A DNA stretch of 64,000 bases from Caenispirillum bisanense. GTDB taxonomy: Bacteria; Pseudomonadota; Alphaproteobacteria; Rhodospirillales; UBA2165. The DNA lies in NCBI GenBank assembly GCA_945877815.1, contig CAMDWJ010000023.1, positions 1-64,000 on the forward strand. Reading direction: 5' to 3'. Positions 21,152-27,235 of this stretch are shown here, in pieces. The notes under the pieces are model-generated. The model did not search any database and was not told the origin of the DNA. It was given only the letters and a program-made list of their open reading frames with translations. Both the position numbers and the translations under genes were made by a program. Position 1 is the first letter of the stretch. Every line of letters starts with the position of its first letter.

Positions 21152-21769
21152 TCAATCTGCCTTCAAGCCGCGCTGCACCTGCGGGCGGGCGGCGATCGTC
21201 TCAAACCAGCGTTTGACGTTCGGATAGCCTGCGAGATCGATGCCGGTTTCGGCATGACGATTGACCCAAGTGACGTGCGCGATATCGGCGATCGAATAAT
21301 CGCCGACGAAATAGTCCTTACCCTCTAGATGCAACTCGATGGTCTCGAAACAGCGACGCCCGAGAATGCCGAAATGTTTCTTGGCGGCGGGCACGTCTTC
21401 GGGGAAGCGCGTCTCGAACAAAGTGACATTTGCGAAGGTCGGCCCGAAGGTCGATTGCCCATGCAGCGCCCATTGATCGACCAGGAAGCGCGTCGCCGGA
21501 TCGCTCGGGTAGAGCGGGCTGTTCGTCTTGGCGGCGAGGTACGTCATGATGACGTGGCTTTCGATGATGCTGAGCGGTTTGCCGCCGGGGCCTTCGCTAT
21601 CGACCAGCGTCGGGATGCGCCGCGAGGGTGCCACCTTGCGATAATCCGCAGCGAGATTGCTGCCGTCGCGGATATTGACGAGTTGCAGATTGTAGGGGAG
21701 CCCGACCTCCTCCAGCATGATGCGGCCCTTCTGGCCGTTGGGCGTCGGGAAATAATAAAGATCGAGCAT
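21152..21769 (-). CDS. Glutathione S-transferase-like protein 1
   Basis: 205 residues. An N-terminal thioredoxin-like domain ('LDLYYFPTPNGQKGRIMLEE', 'RIPTLVDSEG', 'IIESHVIMTYLA') is followed by a helical C-terminal domain ('DYSIADIAHVTWVNRH'). 'ESxxI' is the glutathione-binding SNAIL/TRAIL-like motif. It is the most diverged of the three tandem genes. The TPNGQK active-site loop resembles Nu-class GSTs (YfcG/YghU), which have disulfide reductase activity. The stop abuts the convergent MarR gene. Confidence 0.88.
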   Translation of the reverse strand: MLDLYYFPTPNGQKGRIMLEEVGLPYNLQLVNIRDGSNLAADYRKVAPSRRIPTLVDSEGPGGKPLSIIESHVIMTYLAAKTNSPLYPSDPATRFLVDQWALHGQSTFGPTFANVTLFETRFPEDVPAAKKHFGILGRRCFETIELHLEGKDYFVGDYSIADIAHVTWVNRHAETGIDLAGYPNVKRWFETIAARPQVQRGLKAD

Positions 21770-21779
21770 GAGCGTTCCT

Positions 21780-22397
21780 TTACGCGAGCGGTGCGTAGGC
21801 GCGTTGAACGGCGGGCCGCGCCGAAATGCGGTCGTACCATTTCTTGACGTTGGGATAATCGTCGGGCCGGAAGCTGCCGGCATACTGGCGCACGTCGGCG
21901 TAATGGGCGAGATCGGCCAACGAATAATCGTCGGCGAAATAGACGCGCCCTTCGAGCCGCTGGTTGATGACGCCGTAGAGATCGAGCGCGTAGGTCTCGT
22001 AGTATTTCTTCGCTCCCGGCACGTCCTCGCTCGAGCGGAAATTGAAATAGCCGTGCTGGGCGAGAATCGGACAAAACGTCGCGATGCCGTAGGAAAACCA
22101 GGTCTCCATCTCGGCGAGCGCGCGTGCGTCCTTGGGGATCAACTGGGAGTTCGTCTTGGTCGCGAGGTAACGCAGGATGGCCGGCGATTCCGGGACGACG
22201 ATCTGGCCGCCGCCGGGCCCGTCGGAATCCACCAGCACCGGGATCTTGTGGCCGACATGGAGCTTGCGGAAACTGTCGCTCAGCTGCTCCCGCTTGAGCA
22301 GCGAAACCGGATGCAGGTTATAGGCAAGCCCCGTCTCCTCGACCATCGTTCGCGCGCGATAGCCGTTGTTGGTCGTCCAGAAATACAGATCGAGCAT
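21780..22397 (-). CDS. Glutathione S-transferase-like protein 2
   Basis: 205 residues; 'LDLYFWTTNNGYRARTMVEE' replaces the TPNGQK loop with TTNNGYR. 'HKIPVLVDSDG' and 'PESPAILRYLA' are the glutathione-site motifs, and 'DYSLADLAHYADVRQY' is the conserved N-capping region. It is clearly a close paralogue of the gene at 23026, sharing the same YFWTTNNGYRART start and the same C-terminal 'KWYDRISARPAVQRAY'. 10 bp precede the next GST start. Confidence 0.88.
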   Translation of the reverse strand: MLDLYFWTTNNGYRARTMVEETGLAYNLHPVSLLKREQLSDSFRKLHVGHKIPVLVDSDGPGGGQIVVPESPAILRYLATKTNSQLIPKDARALAEMETWFSYGIATFCPILAQHGYFNFRSSEDVPGAKKYYETYALDLYGVINQRLEGRVYFADDYSLADLAHYADVRQYAGSFRPDDYPNVKKWYDRISARPAVQRAYAPLA

Positions 22398-22411
22398 GGC
22401 GCCGCCTCCAC

Positions 22412-23026
22412 TTAGATGGCGGCGTAGGCGCGTTGAACGGCGGGCCGCGCGGAGATGCGGTCGTACCACGTCTTGATGTTGGGATAATCCTCAGGCTTCA
22501 GGCTGTCCTTGTACATCCGCACGTCGGCATAATGCGCGAAGTCGGCCAATGAAATTTGATCGCCAACGAAGTAGTCACGCCCGGCAAGACGCTGATTGAT
22601 GACGGTGTACATATCGCGCGCGTAAGTCTCGAAAAATTTCTTCGCCCCCGGTACGTCCTCCGGCGAGCGGAAATGGAAATGACCGTATTGGGCCACGACC
22701 ATGCAGAAGGTCGACACGCCGTAGGAGAACCACGATTCCATCTCAACTTTGGTACGTGGATCGGACGGGATCAAATTGCTTTTGGCCTTCTCGGCGACGT
22801 AGCGCAGAATCGCCGGGGATTCCGGGATCGCGATGGAGCCGCCCGGCCCTTCGGAATCGACCAGCACCGGGATCTTATGGCCGATATGCAGCTTCTTGAA
22901 ATCGTCGCTCAACTGCTCCTTCTTGGGCAGCGCCACCGGGTGCAGGTTATAGGCAAGGCCCACCTCCTCAAGTGCGGTGCGCGCGCGATAGCCGTTGTTG
23001 GTGGTCCAGAAATACAAATCAAGCAT
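22412..23026 (-). CDS. Glutathione S-transferase-like protein 3
   Basis: 204 residues, paralogue of the 22397 gene throughout. 'LYFWTTNNGYRARTALEE', 'HKIPVLVDSEG', 'PESPAILRYVA' and 'RISARPAVQRAY' match its neighbour. First gene of the three-gene GST operon and divergent from the SDR at 23140, with 113 bp between. Tandem triplication suggests selection for dosage or specialised substrates. A disulfide reductase or isomerase role is as likely as conjugation. Confidence 0.88.
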   Translation of the reverse strand: MLDLYFWTTNNGYRARTALEEVGLAYNLHPVALPKKEQLSDDFKKLHIGHKIPVLVDSEGPGGSIAIPESPAILRYVAEKAKSNLIPSDPRTKVEMESWFSYGVSTFCMVVAQYGHFHFRSPEDVPGAKKFFETYARDMYTVINQRLAGRDYFVGDQISLADFAHYADVRMYKDSLKPEDYPNIKTWYDRISARPAVQRAYAAI

Positions 23027-24022: not shown

Positions 24023-24047
24023 ATCTGTAGTCTCTGTGTCTGCAGAT
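24023..24047. promoter_or_regulatory. Inverted repeat upstream of the cyclic-nucleotide-binding gene
   Basis: atctgtag (24023-24030) and ctgcagat (24040-24047) form an imperfect dyad (one mismatched pair) centred 39 bp upstream of the ATG at 24074. It could be an operator or a short hairpin. No protein can be assigned from the sequence. Confidence 0.3.
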
Positions 24048-24073
24048 AGAAAAACTGTAGGCGATACCAAGAA

Positions 24074-24541
24074 ATGGGACTATTCGATTACGACGCTGCG
24101 GCTCCGCCCGAAGCGCAGCACGGCGAGATCGTCTTCCTCGAAGATTTCTCCAGCGACGATTGGAACAAGATCCTCAACATCGTCGAACCCCGGCATTTCC
24201 AAGCCGGCCAAGACCTCGTGCGCAACGGCGAGCAAGACGACTCATTCTACATTTTGTCGTCCGGCGCGGCCGATGTAATCGTGCGCGACACGAAAGGGAC
24301 CGAGTCGGTTCTGACAACCCTCCCCGAAGGCTCGGTGTTCGGAGAAATCTCATTTTTCGACGGCCAGCCGCGCAGCGCCACCATCCGCTCGATACGCGGC
24401 GGCAGCGCGATTCGGGTATCACGCGCGAATTTCGAAACATTCGCCGCCTGGGAACCCGTTCTCGCGCGCAAACTGTTGCTCGAGCTGGGCAAAGTTCTCG
24501 CGTTGCGGCTGCGTTGGACAACGAAACGCACGGCGAATTGA
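24074..24541 (+). CDS. Stand-alone cyclic-nucleotide-binding-domain protein
   Basis: 155 residues. 'FSSDDWNKILNIVEPRHFQAGQDLVRNGEQDDSFYILSSG' is the beta-barrel of a cNMP domain, and 'FGEISFFDGQPRSATIR' is the phosphate-binding cassette with its Glu and Arg intact, consistent with cAMP or cGMP binding. The remaining C-terminal helices ('VLARKLLLELGKVLALRLRW') lack a helix-turn-helix, so this is a sensor subunit rather than a Crp. Its stop lies 49 bp before the large redox fusion, so the two are probably co-transcribed. I infer allosteric control of the partner enzyme. Confidence 0.88.
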   Translation: MGLFDYDAAAPPEAQHGEIVFLEDFSSDDWNKILNIVEPRHFQAGQDLVRNGEQDDSFYILSSGAADVIVRDTKGTESVLTTLPEGSVFGEISFFDGQPRSATIRSIRGGSAIRVSRANFETFAAWEPVLARKLLLELGKVLALRLRWTTKRTAN

Positions 24542-24589
24542 TCTCGCGCCCCACCTCCGACTTATCCCTGAAGATCGAGCGAGCCCGCA

Positions 24590-27235
24590 ATGAGCCAAGC
24601 CAAAATCAACCCCTTTCCTAACTATCTCGAAATGCCGGCCAAGGTTCCCGTGATCGTCTGGCGCATTTTGCGGGGGCTCGCCCTCGCGGCCGTCATCGGC
24701 ATTTCTTGGCTGGTCGTCGCCTATCCCGACGTCGGTTTCACGATCTTCTGGCGCATCCTCATTCCGTCGTTGCCGCTTTTGTTCGCCGTGGCGCCCGGTG
24801 TTTGGCGCCAGATCTGTCCGATGGCGATGTTGAACCAGATACCGCGAACGCTGGGCTTCAGCCTGGAACGCACATTGCCGCTCTACTTCAAGAATCTTGC
24901 CTACTTCATCGCGGTCTTAAGCTTCTTCTTCCTCGTCAGTCTTCGCCATGTCTACTTCAACAAGGAACCGGCGATGCTCCTGGCGCTGGTCGTAACGGCG
25001 TTGTCGCTGGCGTTTCTAGGCGGCGTGATCTTCAAGGGCCGGAGCGGCTGGTGCGGGACATTTTGTCCGCTCGGCCCCATCCAAAAAGCCTACGGCCTCG
25101 CCCCAATCGCGATCGTGCGCAACGGCTATTGCCCGACCTGCGTCGGCTGTCAGAAAAACTGCTACGACTTCAATCCGCGCGCGGCGTTCCTGAGCGATAT
25201 CTCCGATCCGGACCCGTGGTATGCAAGTCATAAGAAATTTTTCGTCGCTGGCCTTCCCGGTTTCGCCTACGGTTATTTCACAACCGCCGATCCGATGGAA
25301 ACCGGCCTGATCCCCTACTACAGCTACATTGTCGGCTGCATACTCATGGCCCTCGGCGTCTATATGGCGTTGCGGATATTTGTCCGCATGTCCGACTTCC
25401 GCGTTGCGTCGCTATTCGCTTTGCTGGCACTCGGCATTTTCTATTGGTTTAGCGTACCGAACATCGTCAAGGCGGTCGGGCAATTAACTGGATTTCCAAC
25501 CGCGACGTGGATGGAAGCCGCCCTTCTGTTCGTCGTCGCCGCTGTGATCCTTCGGGTGTTCTATAATGGCCAAATCGCCGAGAAGGAGTTCGCCGCGCTC
25601 CGTTCTCCGTCGCAAGGCGAACCGAAAGTCGGTGTCAAGATCGACGCGGTGCGCACGGGCGCCAGCTCCGCTGACGAGTTGGTCAGCGAACGAGCGTCCG
25701 GGCGCAGCTTTGTCGCCGATCCATCGCGGACATTGCTCGAAGGGATCGAGTCCGCCGGATTGAAAATCGATTTCGGCTGCCGAATGGGTGTTTGCGGTGC
25801 GGATCCGATCGCCGTCGTCGAAGGCATGGGAAACTTAAGCGTCCCCGACAAAAATGAACTCGCGACGTTGCGGCGCCTCGGTCTTGAGGGGCGTGCCCGC
25901 ATGGCCTGCGTGTGCAAAGCGACGAAAGGCGGAGTCACGATCGATCTCAAGACCGATCCGCGCAGCCTGCCCGAGTCACCGACGCCGACAGCGCAAGTCG
26001 ACACCGCGAAGGCGCTAGATTTCGAGAAAATAGTGATTATCGGGAACGGCGCCGCCGGGATCGCGGCGGCCGATGAAATCCGCCGGCGCAACACAAGCTG
26101 CACAATCGATGTCGTCACCCGCGAAAATCATCATTTCTATAATCGGATGGGCATCGCACGTCTGTTGTACGGGCGGTCCGGGCTCGACGATCTCTATTTG
26201 ATGCAACCCGATTGGTACGCAACCAAGAACGTGAATGTCTGGCTCAATACGATTGCGACAGGGATCGACACGACCAATCGTCTCGTACGACTGGGAACCG
26301 GGGAGGAACTGCCCTGCGACCGATTGATTCTCGCGCAAGGATCGAGCGCGGTGAGTCCGCCGGTTCCGGGGGATGGCCTTGCCGGCTGTTTCGTCCTACG
26401 AGAGGCGGCCGATGCGATGGCGCTCCGCAGTTGGCGTCAGACGAAGTCTTGCGAGACCGCAGTCGTTCTCGGTGGCGGTGTTCTCGGTATCGAGACCGCC
26501 GACGCCTTACGCCAGCTCAACCTCAAGGTCACCGTCGTGCAGCGTGACGACCGATTGATGAACCGGGAACTCGATCACAAGGGCAGCGCCATCCTGCGCC
26601 ATTTCCTGGAAGGACTCGGTCTCTGCGTGGTGACGGGCGCGACCGTCGCCAATGTCGAAGGACAGGACCGGCTCGAACGGGTCGTACTCACCAACGGCGA
26701 CGTATTAAAGGCCGACATCTACGTTACCTGCGCCGGCGTCCGCCCCAATGCCGAGATCGCACGCGCGGCCGGGTTGGAGGTGAACCGCGGAATCATCGTC
26801 GATTCATCGATGCGAACCTCCGACCCCTATATTTGGGCGGTCGGGGATGTCGCCGAGCTACCGGGCGCGATCAGCGGACTTTGGGCGGTCGGCACTTCGC
26901 AAGCGGGCGTCGCCGTCGATTCCATATTTGGCGCAACTTCGTCCTACGATCCGCCAAGTACGCTGGTGAGTCTGAAGATGACCGGTATCGACGTGAAGGG
27001 ATATGGCGCACCGAATCGCGATCCCAACAACTGCGAGATCATCGAATTCGAAGACGAACCCGCGCAAACGCACCGGCGATTGGAAATCGCGGATGGCCGA
27101 GTTCGCGGCGCCGTGTTCGTGGGCCCTCCCGGCATCGGGAAACATATCGCCCCGATCATTTCATCAAACACGGATATAAGCTCGATCCTCCCCCGCCTTC
27201 GCCTGGGCGATTGGACGGCGTTGGGAGAACTTTAA
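24590..27235 (+). CDS. Membrane redox fusion: NosR/NapH-like 4Fe-4S module, 2Fe-2S domain and FAD/NAD reductase
   Basis: 881 residues in three blocks. (1) About 1-330: several membrane helices with 'CGTFCP' (Cys155, Cys159) and 'CPTCVGCQKNC' (Cys181, 184, 187, 191), as in NosR/NapH/CcoG membrane ferredoxins. (2) About 345-450: a plant-type 2Fe-2S domain, 'CRMGVCGAD' (Cys397, Cys402) and 'ACVC' (440, 442). The usual third Cys is Asp405. (3) About 475-881: a pyridine-nucleotide-disulfide-type reductase, FAD loop 'IVIIGNGAAG' and NAD loop 'VVLGGGVLGIETADAL', related to rubredoxin/nitrite reductase flavoproteins, with 'TSDPYIWAVGDVAE'. NADH to FAD to 2Fe-2S to membrane 4Fe-4S is a plausible electron path. 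The acceptor is unknown; a quinone or partner oxidase is inference. Confidence 0.88.
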   Translation: MSQAKINPFPNYLEMPAKVPVIVWRILRGLALAAVIGISWLVVAYPDVGFTIFWRILIPSLPLLFAVAPGVWRQICPMAMLNQIPRTLGFSLERTLPLYFKNLAYFIAVLSFFFLVSLRHVYFNKEPAMLLALVVTALSLAFLGGVIFKGRSGWCGTFCPLGPIQKAYGLAPIAIVRNGYCPTCVGCQKNCYDFNPRAAFLSDISDPDPWYASHKKFFVAGLPGFAYGYFTTADPMETGLIPYYSYIVGCILMALGVYMALRIFVRMSDFRVASLFALLALGIFYWFSVPNIVKAVGQLTGFPTATWMEAALLFVVAAVILRVFYNGQIAEKEFAALRSPSQGEPKVGVKIDAVRTGASSADELVSERASGRSFVADPSRTLLEGIESAGLKIDFGCRMGVCGADPIAVVEGMGNLSVPDKNELATLRRLGLEGRARMACVCKATKGGVTIDLKTDPRSLPESPTPTAQVDTAKALDFEKIVIIGNGAAGIAAADEIRRRNTSCTIDVVTRENHHFYNRMGIARLLYGRSGLDDLYLMQPDWYATKNVNVWLNTIATGIDTTNRLVRLGTGEELPCDRLILAQGSSAVSPPVPGDGLAGCFVLREAADAMALRSWRQTKSCETAVVLGGGVLGIETADALRQLNLKVTVVQRDDRLMNRELDHKGSAILRHFLEGLGLCVVTGATVANVEGQDRLERVVLTNGDVLKADIYVTCAGVRPNAEIARAAGLEVNRGIIVDSSMRTSDPYIWAVGDVAELPGAISGLWAVGTSQAGVAVDSIFGATSSYDPPSTLVSLKMTGIDVKGYGAPNRDPNNCEIIEFEDEPAQTHRRLEIADGRVRGAVFVGPPGIGKHIAPIISSNTDISSILPRLRLGDWTALGEL

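Follow-up and report, generated by a model that had tools for sequence, protein, structure and literature searches.

The locus and the architecture of its two products

The window (the whole stretch of 64,000 nucleotides analysed here) carries on its + strand two adjacent open reading frames, one encoding a cyclic-nucleotide-binding (CNB) protein and the other a multidomain membrane oxidoreductase, both of which are open and which are separated by 48 bp. Their features are as follows:

24074..24541, + strand: stand-alone CNB domain protein with a C-helix and without a DNA-binding domain (155 aa; Pfam, AF2 and homologous loci)
24083..24091, + strand: F4-x-Y6 motif in the N-terminal tail (pLDDT <50), F and Y being nearly invariant across the CNB family
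24335..24379, + strand: phosphate-binding cassette, residues 88-102 (E91 = CRP E72, R100 = CRP R82, S101 = CRP S83)
24518..24523, + strand: T149-T150 of the C-helix, aligned with CRP T127-S128 (adenine contacts)
24590..27235, + strand: membrane NAD(P)H oxidoreductase fusion (881 aa)
24650..25603, + strand: membrane module, NapH-type, about 8 TM, with invariant C76, C155, C159, C181, C184, C187 and C191
25679..25945, + strand: 2Fe-2S ferredoxin domain with invariant C397, C402, D405 and C440, Asp replacing the third Cys
26024..27184, + strand: FAD/NAD(P) reductase domain, NirB/ferredoxin-reductase (TodA, BphA4) type (profiles, PDB, Foldseek)
26540..26545, + strand: Q651-R652 at the position of BphA4 E175-T176 (alignment; PMC7397466), predicting NADPH preference

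The flanking genes are unrelated to the pair (SDR and GST-type genes on one side and a PEP-utilising dikinase on the other). Three successive related glutathione S-transferase-type genes occupy 21152-23026 on the - strand, an apparent tandem duplication. No promoter-like site was found in the approximately 50 bp before the CNB gene, where the range of an earlier sequence-only reading of this DNA starts (24023). In a composition test for horizontal transfer, the GC content of the pair was 59.6%, compared with 61.7 ± 2.2% for the window.

The CNB protein matched PF00027 (Pfam, E 2.8e-19), and its AF2 model (pLDDT 83.5) showed a CNB fold with a C-helix behind it, at which the chain ends, the nearest structures being the CNB domains of CRP and GlxR. 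No helix-turn-helix family was matched in profile searches. Thus, the missing DNA-binding helices that the sequence-only reading had pointed out were confirmed, and the protein does not have the C-terminal helix-turn-helix of CRP/FNR transcription factors. The F-x-Y motif of its tail might be a docking contact with the fusion.

The AF2 model of the fusion (pLDDT 84.8) contains about eight TM helices at residues 21-338. Fer2 (370-445) and Pyr_redox_2 (480-759, E 3.6e-57) were found by Pfam, with Fer4_5 at 134-166 just under the cut-off; in a scan of 23 family members, Fer2 was present in all, Fer4_5 in 22 and the NapH models in 20-22. Profiles and model together bore out the order that had been proposed, that is, a membrane 4Fe-4S module followed by a 2Fe-2S and an FAD/NAD(P) domain, and a membrane redox role is supported. 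Like proteins of the NapH/MauN/NosR type, the fusion has a multi-TM module with a CxxxCP motif, further 4Fe-4S cysteines and a profile match, but it is joined to 2Fe-2S and FAD/NAD(P) domains, has about eight TM helices and carries neither an FMN-binding nor a periplasmic domain. TIGR02163 matched 20 of the 23 members, all under the curated cut-off (best E 3.6e-9), and the window fusion reached 17.3 bits where the cut-off lies at 234 (TIGR02163/NF007013). Instead of the two CxxxCP and two 4Fe-4S motifs of NapH/MauN, it has one CxxxCP (C155/C159), one CP (C76) and one CxxCxxCxxxC (C181-C191). The FMN-binding domain of flavinylated extracytosolic NapH-like systems (PMC8238504) was not found in the fusion, and no neighbour other than the CNB gene is conserved. 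In the Foldseek search the FAD domain was matched, with ferredoxin reductases as its closest relatives, and the membrane fold had no structural match; when the fusion was searched against plasmids and, as a single sequence, against the PDB, the FAD domain alone was likewise matched.

The seven cysteines of the membrane part and C397/C402/D405/C440 were invariant in all 33 aligned fusions. No invariant His was found in the membrane part of these sequences, and therefore there is no haem b ligand. The 2Fe-2S pattern, C-x4-C-x2-D...C, resembles that of E. coli SdhB, in which Asp can serve as a [2Fe-2S] ligand, and this ligand variant (C-x4-C-x2-C/D...C) occurred in 33 of 33 fusions. By loop prediction the invariant cysteines, like the soluble domains, face the cytosol, and no periplasmic domain is present, which would put the electron acceptor in or at the membrane.

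The FAD/NAD(P) domain shares fold and sequence with the NirB N-terminal domain, TodA, BphA4 and putidaredoxin reductase, but it is attached to a membrane module and has mostly Q/H-R in place of the NAD-ribose Glu. In BphA4, this residue is Glu175, to which the NAD ribose binds and which is held to repel NADPH and favour NADH (PMC7397466). Residues 19-58 of the query aligned with BphA4 148-187, two stretches of equal length that were read as ungapped, so that Q651 corresponds to position 175 and R652 to 176. Across the 33 aligned relatives, position 651 was Q in 20, H in 11, N in one and V in one, and position 652 was R in 29; the Glu of NADH-specific ferredoxin reductases was found in none. 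A BphA4 variant with E175Q/T176R/Q177G has been solved (4h50). No CoADR-type active-site Cys was present in the segment behind the first FAD motif of the aligned fusions. Because the NADH-favouring Glu is missing throughout and mostly replaced by Q/H and then R, sequence comparison makes NADPH, or dual use, more likely as the donor than NADH alone; the NADH assumed in the sequence-only reading is not supported, and NADPH is the better prediction.

Conservation and spread of the pair

A peptide-pattern scan over 84,980 genomes yielded fusion homologues at 39 loci in alpha-, beta- and gammaproteobacteria (34-63% identical), with carriers that include Rhodoblastus, Accumulibacter, Rubrivivax and Cocleimonas. 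Two loci (L067 and L073) are cut by contig ends and were left out, and in both genomes CNB plus FHA genes were found at another contig end. A CNB gene of the same family lies directly upstream of the fusion on the same strand at 33 of the 37 testable loci, with a gap of 2-383 bp (median 35), and is missing beside it at four (L043, L044, L054 and L062). The chance of a CNB gene as any one neighbour is about 0.4%, given 17 CNB domains in the genome and an estimated 3800 or so genes. Since the CNB gene recurs upstream amid otherwise unrelated genes, CNB and fusion are a conserved module and not a chance pair. The question that the sequence-only reading had itself set as a possible refutation, namely whether the pairing extends to other genomes, is thereby answered in its favour across three classes. 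Besides the CNB gene, and an FHA gene in one clade, no further gene is common to the loci, and a larger operon was rejected on this basis.

Divergence of the CNB proteins followed that of the fusions (r 0.79, reached in 0 of 5000 permutations), which is supportive only, as such a correlation is expected of any co-inherited pair. Carriage of the fusion is rare, at 6 of 385 class genomes in evenly drawn samples. The close relatives of the host that were searched gave matches to the FAD domain alone, and the module is therefore dispensable. The tree departs from taxonomy, the betaproteobacterial Accumulibacter grouping with the alphaproteobacterium Acidisphaera, which suggests that the CNB-fusion pair has been transferred horizontally as a unit.

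Several variants of the arrangement were also observed. One fusion (L044:12605-13516) is lengthened at its C terminus by 300 aa that match nothing in Pfam and appear to include one TM segment. A stand-alone relative of the membrane module (355 aa, E 4e-54), which has no reductase domains and adjoins an MCP-type gene, is encoded at L095:9413-10477 on the - strand. In two Rubrivivax genomes the CNB gene is present twice, as an FHA-linked copy at a contig end and as a copy with its own fusion (L124 and L127 versus L125 and L126).

Cyclic-nucleotide contacts and their loss in a sister clade

The CNB alignment used the E. coli CRP sequence as its reference. All seven aligned cAMP contacts of CRP (G71, E72, R82, S83, R123, T127 and S128, the last S as T) are present in the window CNB, and the same set is intact at L040, L042, L045 and L076. 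Of the 16 other CNBs encoded in the window's genome, 14 have the E/R pair, which hence is not by itself special to the window CNB, and one matches the complete contact set. The host genome gave seven matches to class III cyclases, which were found in 37 of 42 carriers. In Rhodoblastus, the CNB-fusion pair of two loci is divergently adjoined by a gene for a class III cyclase (L046:7073-9370 and L049:4912-7212, - strand). Taken together, the intact contact set, the cyclases of the host and the cyclase adjoining two Rhodoblastus pairs make cAMP competence of the window CNB plausible at the sequence level. The cyclase neighbour was dropped as a general feature of the pair, as it is confined to the two Rhodoblastus loci; beside the cyclase, both of these also have a conserved gene of 242 aa whose product resembles FecR on visual inspection.

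A sister clade of 17 members differs in these respects. No readable CNB retains the ribose Glu and, except at L048 and L064, the phosphate Arg is lost too (FGISSFLDGEASA and similar); thus, the CRP-type signature (a G-E...R-S/A cassette plus a C-helix T/S) that the window CNB shows is not found there, and still the CNB-fusion pair is kept. It follows that cAMP gating cannot be universal and that the CNB must act otherwise in this clade. The proposal of cyclic-nucleotide gating therefore stands in part: the contacts it requires are intact in the window CNB, but as a general function it fails, since the sister clade has lost the Glu and Arg. The tail and C-helix are kept in both clades, while the ligand residues are lost in one, which fits a constant subunit interface with a variable input.

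The sister clade has also gained a gene. In every testable member a TagH-like FHA gene adjoins the CNB gene, upstream and on the same strand (divergent at L057), and the FHA gene was recorded at 16 loci (L048, L050, L052-L054, L056-L059, L063-L066, L068, L071 and L078); at L054, FHA and fusion are present and the CNB is missing. The encoded protein resembles TagH, the T6SS-associated FHA protein, and three of four tested FHA proteins exceeded the cut-off of TIGR03354 (273 bits at L050 versus 120); the window has no TagH-like gene. The FHA gene was missing at all 16 testable loci whose cassette is intact and present at 15 of 15 with a degenerate one (Fisher p 3e-9), but these cases are not independent and the association is effectively one event, because the tree puts the carriers in one clade. 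The loss of ligand residues together with the gain of the FHA gene suggests a changed input in the sister clade. A T6SS link of the FHA gene was rejected despite the TagH-like score: TssC is missing from most FHA-clade genomes, and also from the window's genome.

Proposed function and alternatives

The reading that we prefer, and hold to be about evenly poised between right and wrong, is that a membrane NAD(P)H:quinone-type oxidoreductase has the CNB as its regulatory subunit, on which cAMP acts as the switch in the clade of the window. NAD(P)H, more likely NADPH, would reduce the FAD of the inner-membrane fusion; the [2Fe-2S] cluster (3 Cys + Asp) would take over the electrons and hand them on to the 4Fe-4S centre or centres at the cytosolic face of the NapH-type module, with a membrane acceptor, most probably quinone, as their final destination. 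The dedicated CNB subunit would be bound to the fusion, its FxY tail perhaps serving as the contact; in the window's clade the cAMP state of the CNB would switch electron flow, and in the sister clade the altered CNB and the TagH-like FHA protein would reflect a change of input. The data show directly that the pair, its domains and the ligand residues are conserved; the complex, its gating, the direction of electron flow, the quinone, cAMP and NADPH are what we infer from them. The membrane segments of NapH have been proposed as a quinol-oxidising site (PMC5928378), and because the redox domains appear cytosolic and no periplasmic domain is present, quinone or a similar membrane acceptor would be the most economical reading. 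Gating by cAMP in the window's clade is a good but unproven hypothesis. Its strongest form, in which cAMP directly and non-transcriptionally gates a membrane NADPH:quinone oxidoreductase through the CNB and the sister clade has swapped to FHA phosphothreonine signalling, we consider rather improbable.

The individual parts of the module are already known. In the open-access literature we found no description of the CNB together with this chain order, of the predicted NADPH use or of the FHA exchange, and to our knowledge direct, non-transcriptional cAMP control of bacterial electron transport is hardly documented. A clade with intact contacts beside a sister clade that has naturally lost them offers a clean comparative system for testing such control, and the predicted NADPH use, if true, would give electrons an unusual way into the pool of the membrane.

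The CNB might instead be a subunit that has a structural role or senses a nucleotide such as NADPH, and not a cAMP sensor, as in HoxI of the NAD-reducing [NiFe] hydrogenase. HoxI is likewise a stand-alone CNB-fold subunit of an NAD(P)H-linked flavo-iron-sulfur enzyme and is clearly homologous (hhalign probability 97, E 1e-11); in HoxI a His stands in place of the phosphate Arg, and the title of a 2005 study by Burgdorf reportedly speaks of activation by NADPH. By analogy this closest precedent shows that such a CNB subunit need not bind cAMP, and a role of this kind accounts for the survival of the pair after loss of the cNMP residues. However, HoxI has V-V where the window clade retains the T127/S128 equivalents together with every other aligned CRP contact. 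HoxI also does not have the FxY tail, and its partner is soluble and unrelated to the fusion. HoxI is encoded with hoxFUYH, whereas the fusion is the sole conserved neighbour here and the homology is one of fold only. We regard this explanation as unlikely, if worth keeping in view. A CNB domain also occurs on a pyridine-nucleotide flavoprotein in the CNB-fused thioredoxin reductase (PMC6544261), which, unlike the pair, is a single soluble chain with disulfide chemistry and without a membrane or Fe-S part.

It is quite unlikely that the fusion feeds NAD(P)H electrons not to quinone but to one particular partner enzyme in the membrane, such as a desaturase, a hydroxylase or a metalloprotein, under regulation by the CNB. 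FAD plus 2Fe-2S is indeed the arrangement of oxygenase ferredoxin-reductase systems, and many different partners use NapH-like modules (PMC8238504), but no partner enzyme gene is conserved beside the pair, the FHA gene of one clade being the sole extra.

Very unlikely is a regulatory redox sensor, which would read the NAD(P)H/quinone state and signal through CNB or FHA with no bulk electron flow: the companions of the fusion are solely of the signal type (CNB and FHA) and a related rhizobial system has FHA on a NapH-like protein beside a histidine kinase and response regulator, but the cofactor ligands of a full electron-transfer chain are invariant and no output domain is conserved.

This rhizobial system (R. 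etli 8C-3 and A. fabrum) is a case of its own in which FHA accompanies an NAD(P)H chain of the NapH type. Like the module, it has adjacent genes for a NapH-like membrane module, FHA and an NAD(P)H/2Fe-2S reductase, but the reductase is of the FAD_binding_6/NAD_binding_1 type and non-homologous to that of the fusion. No CNB was found in it, and a degenerate CNB within the FHA-NapH protein was considered and dropped (profile comparison probability 1.9). The rhizobial pair lies at L096:4736-10200, L129:9037-14288 and L131:9013-14023 and encodes a NapH-like protein with a C-terminal FHA domain and an FNR-type FAD/2Fe-2S reductase annotated as hybrid-cluster NAD(P)-dependent oxidoreductase; it is divergent from genes for a cytochrome c peroxidase, a histidine kinase and a response regulator.
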